Source: Actinomycetes bacterium
GTDB lineage: Bacteria > Actinomycetota > JAHEXW01
Direction: 5' to 3'
DNA length: 48,042 nt
Assembly (NCBI GenBank): GCA_023251915.1
Contig: JAHEXW010000014.1
Coordinates: 1-48,042, forward strand
Shown: piece by piece, positions 2,704 to 30,422 of the stretch
Layout: each line of letters opens with the position of its first letter
How positions within the stretch are numbered: the first letter of the stretch is position 1
Notes under the pieces: generated by a model
Told to the model about the DNA's origin: nothing
What the model saw: the letters and a program-made list of their open reading frames with translations, nothing else
Database searches by the model: none
Made by a program: the position numbers and the translations under genes

Positions 2704-3521
2704 GCGCTCTTCTCCTCTTCTGGCCCCGGGCCGCCGACCTCTATCCGATACGAAAAACTATCTCCGGGCCAATCGCTTAGATCGTATTCGATACCGGACC
2801 ACGATAGTTGGCCATCAACGACTTCCCGTCCGCGAAACATGGCCGCACCGGCTTGGGCCCGCAAATTGAACCACCTGGAACCATCATCGGCGGCGAAGCC
2901 AGCCGATTCGGCTGAGACCTTAGCCCAGCCGCTTCTGTGTTCACGCGAGTCGACCCGGCCGTCCTCCCGGTAAATTGGGAAGGCACGGCCGCCCTGTTCG
3001 TTGAGGATATACACGCGATCGCGGCGCGACAAGGCCGTTAAGCCCGTCAGGTCAACCTCTACTTGAACGTTATCCTCCCCCAGCCGGTACTCAATGATAA
3101 CCTCGGCGCGAGACCTCACCGGAAAAAAACCAACATTCGGTGTCAAGTTGCCCGTCGCTCGCTTGGCCAGCAGCCAACGCTGGGCCCAAGGCAATCCCTT
3201 ATACACAAGTCCCTTGGCTTCCAGCCAAACATAAGGCCACAGACCGTCGCTTTGTCCGACGCGCTGAACGGCATCAAGGTGAAAGACTTTTTTCACGGTC
3301 GTTCCGTCGCTTGAAATCTCTACGGTCGGGGCGGTAAAAGAGAGATACGTACGCCAGCGCGACACGATTACGGGAACGCCGAAACCCAAACCCTCTTCGG
3401 ATAAATCCGACCCGGACGCGAACATGCAGACACCCTTACGCAGCCCGGCAGTAAGTCCTTCACCGGGCGAGTCGTCGTTGGGAAAGCGCAAAGAAGTAGA
3501 GTGGTTCCGATCAGCAAGCAT
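2700..3521 (-). CDS. Protein of unknown function, partner of the radical SAM gene
   Basis: I do not recognise this 273-residue protein. It has no clear signal peptide or membrane segment. The sequence is rich in Trp, Tyr and alternating hydrophobic/polar residues, suggesting a mostly beta structure; it holds a single Cys near residue 32. Notable stretches are FHLDAVQRVG, LWPYVWLEAKG and YDLSDWPGD near the C-terminus. It ends in an ATGA overlap with the radical SAM gene, so the two are almost certainly co-translated and may act on one pathway. It is the first gene of the leftward operon and is divergent from ccoN, leaving a 197-bp shared upstream region. The ATG at 3521 is the only reasonable start, with a weak AGGAC-like ribosome site. 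Confidence 0.6.
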   Translation of the reverse strand: MLADRNHSTSLRFPNDDSPGEGLTAGLRKGVCMFASGSDLSEEGLGFGVPVIVSRWRTYLSFTAPTVEISSDGTTVKKVFHLDAVQRVGQSDGLWPYVWLEAKGLVYKGLPWAQRWLLAKRATGNLTPNVGFFPVRSRAEVIIEYRLGEDNVQVEVDLTGLTALSRRDRVYILNEQGGRAFPIYREDGRVDSREHRSGWAKVSAESAGFAADDGSRWFNLRAQAGAAMFRGREVVDGQLSWSGIEYDLSDWPGDSFSYRIEVGGPGPEEEKSA

Positions 3522-3664
3522 TGGGGCCGTCCTATAAACCGCATTCCTTGGAGGATTCGCACATATTGACTACTTTTGAACTCAATGGTAATACTATGGA
3601 GAAAACGTTTCAATCTTTTAATCCAGCACGATACCCCACGACTCCGCGCTTTTGTTCTAAATTC

Positions 3665-3692
3665 TTGACTCAAGTCCACCGGCGTGTAGATT
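3665..3692 (+). promoter_or_regulatory. Candidate promoter of the cbb3 oxidase operon
   Basis: TTGACT (3665-3670) and TAGATT (3687-3692) with a 16-bp spacer precede the chosen ccoN start at 3719 by a short leader. The -35 box is embedded in a small inverted repeat, CTTGA-C-TCAAG (3664-3674), and a second one, TTGA-AC-TCAA, lies at 3576-3585. The TTGA/TCAA halves resemble Crp/Fnr half sites, but the 1-2 bp spacing does not fit the usual four or more, so an Fnr assignment is not made. Confidence 0.3.
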
Positions 3693-3718
3693 GCGCTCTG
3701 CCGACTAAAGGGGTACTA

Positions 3719-5110
3719 ATGAAAGAAGACAGCGCCAGTCGCAACTTTATGATTGCTGCTTCCATCTGGTTCGTGTTCGGCGTCTTGATGGGCCTTACGC
3801 TAGCTACAGAATTTGTCTTTCCTGACCTTTTTAAAGGCACATCCTGGCTGGTCTTCAGCCGCCTTAGACAAGCCCATGTGAACACAGTCATGTTTGCGTG
3901 GCTGTCGGGCGGGATGATGGGCCTGATGCTGTACATAGTGCCGCGGTTGACGGGCCGCAAACTATATAGCGAATTGTTGGGCAATATCTGCGTTGTCTTG
4001 TGGAATCTTGCTCTGATATGGGGTGTTGTCGCCCTGTTGCTCGGCCAGAGCCAAGGCCGCGAATACGCGGAACTGATATTCCCGGTCGATGTCGGAATCA
4101 TGGTCGTCCTCTTGATCAACATGTTTAACGTCTTCATGACCGTCGCCAAGCGCATCGAGAAAAAGCTCTACGTCTCGATGTGGTACATCATCGGGACCGT
4201 TGTCTGGATGCCGATGCTCTATTTCATCGGTAACGTTATGTGGCACCCGGCGACGGGGGGCTTGACCGGGATAAACGATTCCATCTTCAACTGGTTTTAC
4301 GGTCATAACGTCCTCGGTTTATGGTTCACAACCGGCCTGCTGGCAGTGGCCTACTATATTGTTCCGCGTGAAACTCACACCCCGATCTACAGCCACCTTG
4401 TTTCCCTGTTTGGTTTCTGGGGTATCGCCTTCTTCTATACCGGCGTTGGCGGCCATCATCTGCTGTGGGCGCCGATCCCTTACTGGGTTAAGACAGTCGC
4501 CGTCGCCGACAGCATCGGGATGATCATCCCCGTGGCGGCGATCATGCTCAATTTCGGCATGACGATGCGCGGCAACTGGAACAGGTTTTCATCAAGCATC
4601 CCGCTGCGCTTTGTTTTTACGGGAATCGTAGCTTACGTACTCGTGTCTTTCCAGGGGTCTCACGAGGCACTCCGCGGCATGAACGAGCTGACCCACTTCA
4701 CGCAATACGTCGGGGGGCACGCTCATCTGTCTCTGCTTTTCTTCGCGGCGTCGATTGTAATCGGGGGGATGTACTATGCCATTCCGCGCATATGCCATTG
4801 CGAACTGTACAGCGACGCCATTGCGAACGTTCAATACGCAATCTACATAGTCGGCTTCACTTTCTTCTTCCTTGGTTTCTTGCTTACTGGTCTGGTGCAA
4901 GGCACCGACTGGGTGCACGTCGGCTTGCCGGTCTGGACGGCCTTACCGGCGTTGCGGCCGTTCATGGCGCTGCGCGTCGTCGGCGGTACTTTGCTGGTCA
5001 TCAGTTTCATTATGTTTACGTATAACATTTTGCTCACGGTCTTTAGAAGTCGCGAGATTGCGGGTCCCGGGGCCCTGGTCCCCTCGGAGCAAGAAAGGAG
5101 GCCGCGCTAG
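3719..5110 (+). CDS. ccoN: cbb3-type cytochrome c oxidase subunit I
   Basis: Catalytic subunit of a C-family haem-copper oxidase, which reduces oxygen to water at high affinity and pumps protons. The 463-residue protein has about 12 membrane spans and the expected histidines: H53 in RQAHVNTVMFAW (low-spin haem), GHNVLGLWF and GVGGHHLLW (Cu-B ligands), and GGHAHLSLLFF (high- and low-spin haem ligands). An open frame extends upstream to 3521, but those 66 residues (PARYPTTPRF and so on) are hydrophilic and unlike the family. The ATG at 3719 (MKEDSASRNFM) gives the normal length, although its ribosome site (AAAGGGG) is weak. It is the first gene of the oxidase operon, abutting the next gene with no gap. 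Confidence 0.93.
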   Translation: MKEDSASRNFMIAASIWFVFGVLMGLTLATEFVFPDLFKGTSWLVFSRLRQAHVNTVMFAWLSGGMMGLMLYIVPRLTGRKLYSELLGNICVVLWNLALIWGVVALLLGQSQGREYAELIFPVDVGIMVVLLINMFNVFMTVAKRIEKKLYVSMWYIIGTVVWMPMLYFIGNVMWHPATGGLTGINDSIFNWFYGHNVLGLWFTTGLLAVAYYIVPRETHTPIYSHLVSLFGFWGIAFFYTGVGGHHLLWAPIPYWVKTVAVADSIGMIIPVAAIMLNFGMTMRGNWNRFSSSIPLRFVFTGIVAYVLVSFQGSHEALRGMNELTHFTQYVGGHAHLSLLFFAASIVIGGMYYAIPRICHCELYSDAIANVQYAIYIVGFTFFFLGFLLTGLVQGTDWVHVGLPVWTALPALRPFMALRVVGGTLLVISFIMFTYNILLTVFRSREIAGPGALVPSEQERRPR

Positions 5111-7132
5111 ATGAGAATCACATTCCGCGTCATCCTCGTTGGCGCCATAGCTATCTTCCTGGCCGTTGTTACTGTGGTCGTGTTCGTTCCCGCGTTTGTT
5201 TGGAAACCGCCCAGGACGGTCGTCGCTCACGCCTACACCCCGCAAGAAAATCATGGACGCGAGCTGTTCTACAAGAACGGCTGCCCATACTGTCATTCCC
5301 AATATGTCCGCAATGACGACACAGGCGACGGCAATATCATCTCTGCCGGCGGTGACTATGTGTTCGACAATCCAATGACTTTAGGGTCGGAACGCACCGG
5401 CCCGGACCTTGCCTATATCGGCCGGAAACGAAGCGAAGCTTGGGATATTGCCCACTATAAAGAACCGCGGCATATGTCGCCGCTGTCAATAATGCCGAGC
5501 TTTAAGTTCCTGTCTAATCAGGACCTCAAGGACTTAACCGCTTACATTTTCAACCTGGGCAACCGGGTGGCAATGGAGAGGATGATCATCCCGCCCATCG
5601 TCTATAAATACAAATCATCGCCCTTGCCCGATCCGACTTTCGTCCTGGACGAATCCGACACTTCGCGCCAAGGCTGGGATGCCTGGAACGCCGCCGGCTT
5701 GCAGGAGGGCAAACAGATTTTTGTCGATCGTTGCCAGACGTGCCATGGGTGTACCGGCAACGGTCAGGGTACGTACGCCGGGACTCTGGTGGTTACCCCG
5801 GCAGACTTTAAGGAGCAACCGATCCGTTCGATGCCGGACGATCAATGGTTCTGGCACGTCTCGGAAGGCGTGCAGGGCTCGGTTATGCCGACTTGGAAAA
5901 CCACTCTTTCGTCAAGCCAACGCTGGCACGTGATCCGCTATGTCCAGCAGATCTTTGCCCGGCCCCACGAGCGCGACCCGGTCGAGGGAGACCCTGTCAC
6001 TCCCTACGCGAATCTGACAAACCCGATCAAACTAACCGTCAAGGAATTGGAGCAGGCCAAGCATATATGGACACGCGAATGCGCCATATGCCACAACATG
6101 GCGGCTTCCGGAGACGGTCCTTTCGGAGATAAGCTTGAGCCTTTGCCGGCCGATTTTCGCGACACCGGACACTACGGCACTCTAGACAACCCACTCTTCA
6201 CAGACTCTGATTATTACTGGCGAATCAGTGAGGGTTTGCCGTGGGCGGCCATGCCCCCCTGGAAGTCGCAGTACTCCGCTGCGGACAGATGGCGGTTAGT
6301 GCACTACATCAGGGTAAACTTTACGCAGACCGAAGCTAGGCCGAAAACGCCGACGCCCTCGGCTCAAAAATATCCTGCCTTCTATTTGGCGCAAAAGACG
6401 TTTCCCGGAGCGTCGTTTAGCCGCGGCCAGCGTGTCTACGTCAACGAATGCGCCAACTGCCATGGCTTGAGCGGGGAGGGCGAAGGTTGGGACGGCTTGT
6501 ATCTGAATGTCCTGCCGACTGATTTTACCTATGGAAAAGCCAAGACGCATAGTCCGGCAAGGCTCTACACCATGACCCTGTTTGGTGTGCAGAATACGGC
6601 CATGCCAAGCTGGTCTGAATTACTGCCCGACGAACAGTTATGGGACGTTGTCACGTATATCAACAAGGCGTTTCAGACGGGCGGCGGCGTCAAGAAAAGC
6701 CAGTTTGGCACGGGCAAGATTGCTGCGACCTCCGTGACCCTGAGTGAGGCGGACTGGACGGATGAAGGTCATGTCATCTCGGCTGACAACGGAGCCGCAG
6801 TCTACGCAACCTATTGCGGGCAATGTCACGGCCGCACAGGCAACGGCAACGGCTATAACGGTCGTTTCCTGCCGGGAGGTCCACCTTCCTCGTTCAATGC
6901 CGCTATGACCCAGCAATACGCTTTCTGGCGAGTCTGGGACGGTGTGCCAAACTCGGTGATGCCGCCCTTCTCTCTCATGCTCACCGAATCCGATATCTGG
7001 GACGTCATTACATATACGGTAGGCATGACAAGCGGCAATCCTGTCGGAAATGCCGCCGCGGCCCCCGCTCAACCGGTTTACGGCGCCTTACCAACGGGGA
7101 CATTGCCCGTAGGACTGGGAGGCGGTCGCTGA
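5111..7132 (+). CDS. ccoO: cbb3 oxidase subunit II (CcoO) fused to four cytochrome c domains
   Basis: A 673-residue membrane-anchored pentahaem cytochrome. Residues 1-30 form the single membrane helix; residues about 40-165 are a CcoO domain with C58-C61-H62 (CPYCH) and a typical TGPDL...IMPSF layout. Four class I cytochrome c domains follow, with haem sites at C208/C211/H212, C324/C327/H328, C447/C450/H451 and C569/C572/H573 and matching Met ligands near M259, M381, M498 and M617. CcoO proteins are usually about 200-250 residues with one haem, so this one is about three times longer. No separate dihaem CcoP gene is present, so the extra domains probably take its electron-input role (inference). 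The stop overlaps the next ATG by 1 nt (TGATG). Confidence 0.92.
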   Translation: MRITFRVILVGAIAIFLAVVTVVVFVPAFVWKPPRTVVAHAYTPQENHGRELFYKNGCPYCHSQYVRNDDTGDGNIISAGGDYVFDNPMTLGSERTGPDLAYIGRKRSEAWDIAHYKEPRHMSPLSIMPSFKFLSNQDLKDLTAYIFNLGNRVAMERMIIPPIVYKYKSSPLPDPTFVLDESDTSRQGWDAWNAAGLQEGKQIFVDRCQTCHGCTGNGQGTYAGTLVVTPADFKEQPIRSMPDDQWFWHVSEGVQGSVMPTWKTTLSSSQRWHVIRYVQQIFARPHERDPVEGDPVTPYANLTNPIKLTVKELEQAKHIWTRECAICHNMAASGDGPFGDKLEPLPADFRDTGHYGTLDNPLFTDSDYYWRISEGLPWAAMPPWKSQYSAADRWRLVHYIRVNFTQTEARPKTPTPSAQKYPAFYLAQKTFPGASFSRGQRVYVNECANCHGLSGEGEGWDGLYLNVLPTDFTYGKAKTHSPARLYTMTLFGVQNTAMPSWSELLPDEQLWDVVTYINKAFQTGGGVKKSQFGTGKIAATSVTLSEADWTDEGHVISADNGAAVYATYCGQCHGRTGNGNGYNGRFLPGGPPSSFNAAMTQQYAFWRVWDGVPNSVMPPFSLMLTESDIWDVITYTVGMTSGNPVGNAAAAPAQPVYGALPTGTLPVGLGGGR

Positions 7133-29798: not shown

Positions 29799-30227
29799 CT
29801 AGACACGGCCTTTCATCTTCGTATAGTACTGTTGATGGTATTCCTCGGCACGATAAAATGGTCCTGCCGCCTCGATGCGTACGCGCAACGGCCGCAGCCG
29901 GTGCGCCGGTTGCGCCGCTTTGGATTCCAGCGCCAATTTCATTTGGTCAGGACTGGTCGTAAATATCGCCGATTCATATTGCGTCATGTACGCCCCCGAG
30001 TGATCCCGGAACCCCCAAAAATGGTGCAGCAGGTCATCGTACGTGATAATTGCCGGGTCGTATGTGATATTAATTGATTCCGTATGCCCATCCAGAGCAT
30101 GGTAGGTCGGATTGACACTCGTGCCTCCCGTGTAGCCTACTTCTGTGCCGGTGACCCCGGCCAGCGAAGAGAAATACCTCTCCACGCCCCAGAATCACCC
30201 CAGTGAGAATATTGCGTGCTCTTCCAT
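29799..30227 (-). CDS. msrA: Peptide methionine sulfoxide reductase MsrA with selenocysteine (in-frame UGA)
   Basis: Read from the ATG at 30227, which has GGAGG at ideal spacing, the frame runs MEEHAIFSLG-UGA-FWGVERYF and continues without further stops to 29799 (143 codons). The UGA at 30195-30197 occupies exactly the catalytic Cys of the invariant MsrA motif GCFWG, so selenocysteine is the natural reading. Downstream family motifs are intact: TEVGYTGG, NPTYHAL, GHTESINI, TQYESAIF and the C-terminal YRAEEYHQQYYTK. The protein reduces methionine-S-sulfoxide. A hairpin with a G-starting loop lies 17 nt after the UGA. A gene caller would start at GTG 30185 and lose the active site. Confidence 0.88.
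30166..30183 (-). promoter_or_regulatory. SECIS-like hairpin within msrA
   Basis: On the minus strand GGAGAG (30183-30178) pairs with CTCTTC (30171-30166), one pair being G-U, around the loop GTATTT. The loop begins with G-U and is 17 nt after the UGA. Known bacterial SECIS elements place a loop G about 16-37 nt behind the UGA on a short stem. The fit is good but the stem is short. Confidence 0.55.
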
Positions 30228-30239
30228 CTTTACCTCCAG

Positions 30240-30422
30240 TTACTCGATCCGATTGCGGCCCGCGCCTTTGGCGCGGTATAAAGCCTGATCTGCGTGAGCC
30301 AGCAGCGCGTCGCGCTGGGTCCCGTCGTCCGCGTAGACAGCCACTCCGCTGGATAGAGTGATTGTTCCCAAGGCCGCGCCCCCGGCCTCTATCCTAGCCG
30401 CCGTCGGGTTAACCTGATTCAC
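30240..30422 (-). pseudogene. Remnant of a GGDEF (diguanylate cyclase) domain
   Basis: The 60 residues match only the C-terminal third of a GGDEF domain: ITLSSGVAVYADDGTQRDALLAHADQALYRAKGAGRNRIE. The GG(D/E)EF active site and everything before it are missing, and an in-frame TAG lies 9 nt upstream of the GTG. It therefore looks like a gene fragment left after a deletion. It lies 12 nt before the msrA start, and may mark a rearrangement border. Confidence 0.75.

Follow-up and report, generated by a model that had tools for sequence, protein, structure and literature searches.

Among the methionine-S-sulfoxide reductases (MsrA), the forms that carry selenocysteine (Sec) in place of the catalytic cysteine have a far higher activity than the cysteine forms. 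The Sec-MsrAs constitute a known family (PMC13188914) and one has been listed, for example, for Syntrophobacter fumaroxidans (PMC1794560), and few of the bacterial enzymes have been characterised biochemically. In MsrAs with a single Cys the internal disulfide route is impossible; glutaredoxin recycles the enzyme of Clostridium oremlandii (CoMsrA), which is also able to dimerise via its catalytic residue, and the recycling of one-Cys/Sec MsrAs has been described as poorly understood (PMC4479559). Deletion of the helical domain of CoMsrA collapses its active site; the domain is essential in this enzyme and is reported to be conserved only in some Sec-MsrAs (PMC4333827). The present work concerns an msrA gene on the minus strand, at positions 29799-30227, of a stretch of 48,042 nt (hereafter, the window) that represents contig JAHEXW010000014.1 of an Actinomycetes bacterium (assembly GCA_023251915.1, a draft of 1.42 Mb in 39 contigs, 92.6% complete). 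With a probability of about 95%, this gene is predicted to encode a selenoprotein methionine-S-sulfoxide reductase in which UGA is read as Sec at catalytic residue 11.

The msrA frame, its hairpin and their conservation

The frame opens with an ATG at 30225-30227 (minus strand), separated by a 5-nt spacer from a GGAGG ribosome-binding site read directly at 30233-30237, and terminates in a TAG at 29799-29801. It reads MEEHAIFSLG-UGA-FWGVERYFSSLAGVTGTEVGYTGG...YHQQYYTKMKGRV-TAG, which gives a protein of 142 residues with the N-terminus MEEHAIFSLG-U-FWGVERYF and with no Cys in the whole translation. The UGA of codon 11 (30195-30197) is the only in-frame stop ahead of the TAG and falls on the catalytic Cys of the motif GCFWG. 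A preliminary description of this DNA had given the coordinates of the frame, the ATG, the GGAGG site, the UGA and the motif, and all of these are found as it had them, read on the minus strand. When UGA is taken as Cys, the translation matches Pfam PF01625 (PMSR) with 132.7 bits (cut-off 23.7; E 1.8e-38) and also exceeds the cut-off of NCBIfam TIGR00401 (msrA; 114.3 versus 108.1). The same description had proposed an alignment with Sec- and Cys-MsrAs, in which the UGA indeed occupies the Cys column and the invariant residues of the family are kept: Tyr42, Glu50, Tyr84, His131 and Tyr134 (window numbering), together with GC(U)FWG, form invariant columns common to 29 relatives (here and below, the MsrA relatives were collected for their similarity to the window MsrA, and counts among them are not population frequencies). 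A second MsrA, of the Cys type, that might serve as a backup was looked for in the window genome and none was found.

The published model of the bacterial Sec insertion sequence (bSECIS) consists of a hairpin located 16-37 nt after the UGA with a G among the first two bases of the loop (PMC13188914). In msrA, the hairpin GUGGAGAG-GUAUUU-CUCUUCGC (30164-30185, minus strand) agrees with these constraints in our own implementation of the model: its apical loop of 6 nt, whose first bases are G-U, begins 17 nt after the UGA, and its folding energy is -9.4 kcal/mol. The loop and the distance had already been noticed in the preliminary description, which gave a stem of 6 bp; on folding, the stem comprises 8 bp. 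A segment of 50 nt that begins at the UGA has a folding energy of -23.9 kcal/mol (z -3.55), a stability reached by none of 200 shuffled sequences. Among control codons of the window genes, 5.4% comply with the bSECIS model, and 1.8% do so at equal stability. The model is likewise satisfied by 9 of 11 UGA-MsrAs versus 10 of 119 Cys-MsrAs, with a p value of 2e-7 that ignores relatedness and is indicative only.

A sister genome of the same genus (G001), whose msrA contig is public as JANXYU010000022.1 (Actinobacteria bacterium, metagenome-assembled genome, MAG), carries an msrA in which codon 11 is UGA as well; the two proteins are 87% identical, and the junction to the next gene is identical in both genomes. 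Downstream of the UGA, the comparison of the two genes yields a dN of 0.072 and a dS of 1.42 (dN/dS about 0.05) and therefore indicates strong purifying selection on the frame; the ten codons preceding the UGA are likewise conserved between the two species. Within codons 10-27 (30147-30200, minus strand), that is, the UGA together with some 50 nt, only 1 of 18 third positions has changed, versus 53% elsewhere in msrA (Fisher p 2.5e-4 for degenerate codons; permutation p 0.009 for the best such block anywhere in the gene). By this sole change, U-G is replaced by U-A at one pair in the stem of the hairpin. Third positions frozen in this manner are as would be predicted for a SECIS embedded in a coding region.

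Selenocysteine machinery and further UGA genes

From the msrA frame, the preliminary description had deduced that the organism possesses SelA, SelB, SelC and SelD, and regarded a genome devoid of selA/selB/selC as fatal to its reading. In the window genome, selD, yedF, selA and selB follow one another up to the end of contig C13, where selB is partial (247 aa) and stops at the contig edge; the deduction thus stands for selA, selB and selD, while selC, the gene of tRNA-Sec, is not detected in the assembly. In G002, which belongs to the same order as the window genome (selA 58% and selB 71% identical), a UCA tRNA-Sec directly follows selB. Other genes of the window genome also carry an internal UGA. 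For example, SelD itself (L022:5546-6595, on C13) has UGA at its catalytic Cys position (GKSGUASK), and its frame terminates in a further UGA. Another example is a Sec-glutaredoxin gene (79 aa, also on C13; L184:531-1695 including the next gene) with UGA at the catalytic Cys position (UPHC), which is directly followed by a gene for a flavoprotein similar to thioredoxin reductase and AhpF; a Cys-glutaredoxin is encoded in this genome as well. Therefore, an internal UGA occurs in at least three genes of the window genome, all with a redox or selenium function. A scan for TGA read-through in the uncovered stretches of the window returned only two ORFs, neither of them gene-like by eye, and an Rfam scan of the window gave nothing at gathering thresholds.

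Apart from its normal selA-selB-tRNA-Sec(UCA) locus (L151), G002 harbours a second SelB of 638 aa (L152:3671-5697). Ahead of it lies a long-arm tRNA of 92 nt, whose acceptor stem has 8 bp and whose anticodon is GCA. This second locus resembles a Sec system in which Cys codons are read, and systems of this kind have already been mentioned in the literature (PMC8124441).

Alternative explanations of the in-frame UGA

Several results weigh against the reading of the UGA as Sec. In the 92.6%-complete assembly, the search for tRNA-Sec with RF01852 gave only matches below the cut-off (the best eight genome-wide fall on tRNA-Ser, Leu, Cys or Arg); no tRNA-Sec was found in a search of the window and the sel locus either. 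The sister MAG (91% complete) has no detectable selB, selD or tRNA-Sec, and the only match to the 9-kb sel region in that genome is a GTPase motif of 51 nt; the region was also sought there via the neighbouring LysR protein and the 9 kb of DNA, with nothing useful as a result. In addition, a strict hairpin scan calls no SECIS for SelD or the Sec-glutaredoxin of the window genome, in each of which a short hairpin carries a G-G loop. As regards selC, because selB is cut by the contig edge and selC follows selB in G002, the missing gene would most likely lie just beyond the end of C13. In the sister MAG, an assembly gap appears likelier than a loss of the sel genes, since the SECIS block with its frozen third positions is retained there and the MsrA is intact.

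Three other explanations of the UGA have been considered. A nonsense mutation or a sequencing error in an ordinary Cys-MsrA, which would make the gene a pseudogene or an artefact, could be argued from the draft state of the assembly (39 contigs) and from a TGA that is one base away from TGC or TGT. However, the same TGA recurs in a separate genome of the genus at a dS of 1.4, the dN/dS is about 0.05 with frozen third positions after the UGA, and sel genes and further UGA genes are present. This explanation was rejected on the sister sequence and the dN/dS, and we consider it very improbable. Selenium-independent decoding, in which Cys or another ordinary amino acid would be placed at the UGA, either by a suppressor tRNA or through an altered code of the whole genome, is faced with the presence of selA, selB and selD and with a hairpin and a frozen block that sit where SelB would need them, although it would accommodate both the undetected tRNA-Sec and a site that requires a Cys-like residue. 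A reassignment throughout the genome was rejected because UGA ends 4 of the 15 window genes checked and the selD frame itself, and decoding as an ordinary amino acid has, on the whole, very little probability. Finally, the real product might be the 128-aa ORF that begins at GTG 30185, or the UGA might be a regulatory stop with the downstream frame translated separately. The preliminary description had foreseen that automatic annotation would choose this GTG, and a standard-code ORF caller does exactly so, reporting 29799-30185 with the active site lost. The enzyme is otherwise conserved, and such a product would have neither its first strand nor its catalytic residue. Moreover, the ten codons ahead of the UGA show conservation too and have a good ribosome-binding site upstream in the window genome; this view is the least probable of all. 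Reading codon 11 as Sec corrects an annotation in which the active site would disappear.

Predicted mechanism and comparison with known MsrAs

For an MsrA with Sec at position 11, we infer both the incorporation of selenium at this residue and enzyme activity. SelB and Sec-tRNA-Sec, guided by the hairpin right after the UGA, would insert Sec at residue 11, and the selenolate of Sec11 would then attack methionine sulfoxide, free methionine and leave a selenenic acid. The protein is free of Cys and therefore has no internal resolving thiol, so an external reductant is needed. By analogy with CoMsrA, this reductant is most likely a glutaredoxin, which would resolve the selenenic acid; the Sec-glutaredoxin (UPHC) and the adjoining flavoprotein reductase are likely candidates for the electron supply to the Sec-MsrA.

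Two other regions of the window may be mentioned. Directly upstream of msrA, a 60-aa ORF (30240-30422, minus strand), whose match to a GGDEF domain is confined to the C-terminal end, is apparently a gene remnant. On the plus strand, 3521-7132 contains two ORFs judged by eye. The first resembles a subunit of a haem-copper (cbb3-type) oxidase, and in the next, a large one, the CxxCH haem motif recurs; these ORFs suggest that the window organism may respire.

The window MsrA shares the PMSR fold and the catalytic residues with the Cys-MsrAs (E. coli 1ff3, G002 and most relatives), which differ from it in having a Cys codon in place of the UGA, longer loops and usually no SECIS-like hairpin. It is accompanied by UGA-MsrAs from several further lineages. 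Those of G306/L181, G043/L149 and G250/L179, from the same phylum, resemble it in the catalytic UGA, the short loops and the SECIS-like hairpin, but they have about 200 residues with a C-terminal extension that the window MsrA lacks. A catalytic UGA has been found as well in L087, L106, L129, L071, L116, L102 and L180, which belong to Obscuribacterales, Planctomycetota, Abditibacteriales and G189, the latter being another family of the window's phylum. When Cys or UGA is mapped as a label on the MsrA tree, about six changes result, of which the starred branches force only two; these changes suggest that Cys and Sec may have been exchanged repeatedly among MsrAs. In L116, the frame continues for 283 residues into an apparent MsrB domain (by eye).

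The closest described enzyme is CoMsrA, whose structures (4lwj, 4u66, 7c13, 4w8c) are the closest PDB sequences to the window MsrA; the catalytic domains are about 41-42% identical. Both proteins have Sec at the catalytic position and no other Cys, and they share the shortened loops and gap pattern. A selenoprotein glutaredoxin is present in both organisms (for the CoMsrA host, according to reference 85 of PMC13188914). In the tree, the window MsrA is grouped with CoMsrA and the UGA-MsrAs of G306, G043 and G250, with a support of 91/84 that is not decisive, and the branches involved are long (0.98 for the CoMsrA end branch and 1.57 for the stem of the window pair). On the other hand, CoMsrA possesses a C-terminal helical domain, whereas it is absent from the window MsrA and from the sister protein, in which the last residue, 142, comes immediately behind the catalytic domain. 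The AlphaFold2 model of the window protein adopts the MsrA fold (pLDDT 90.7), with TM scores of 0.89-0.92 to full-length CoMsrA versus 0.76-0.77 to the collapsed deletion form, a comparison limited by the tendency of AlphaFold2 to favour the fold of the family. A Sec-MsrA devoid of the helical domain is not new in itself, because this domain has been described as conserved only in some members (PMC4333827); the novelty of the window MsrA is its compact, Cys-free architecture within the known Sec-MsrA family. As a tentative picture, for which the odds are somewhat below even, an actinobacterial lineage would use a two-selenoprotein relay, in which a compact Sec-MsrA of the C. oremlandii type, with a single Sec, no Cys and no helical domain, is fed by a seleno-glutaredoxin and a flavoprotein reductase. 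A natural Sec-MsrA of 142 residues that contains no Cys and dispenses with the helical domain required by CoMsrA would offer a minimal test case.
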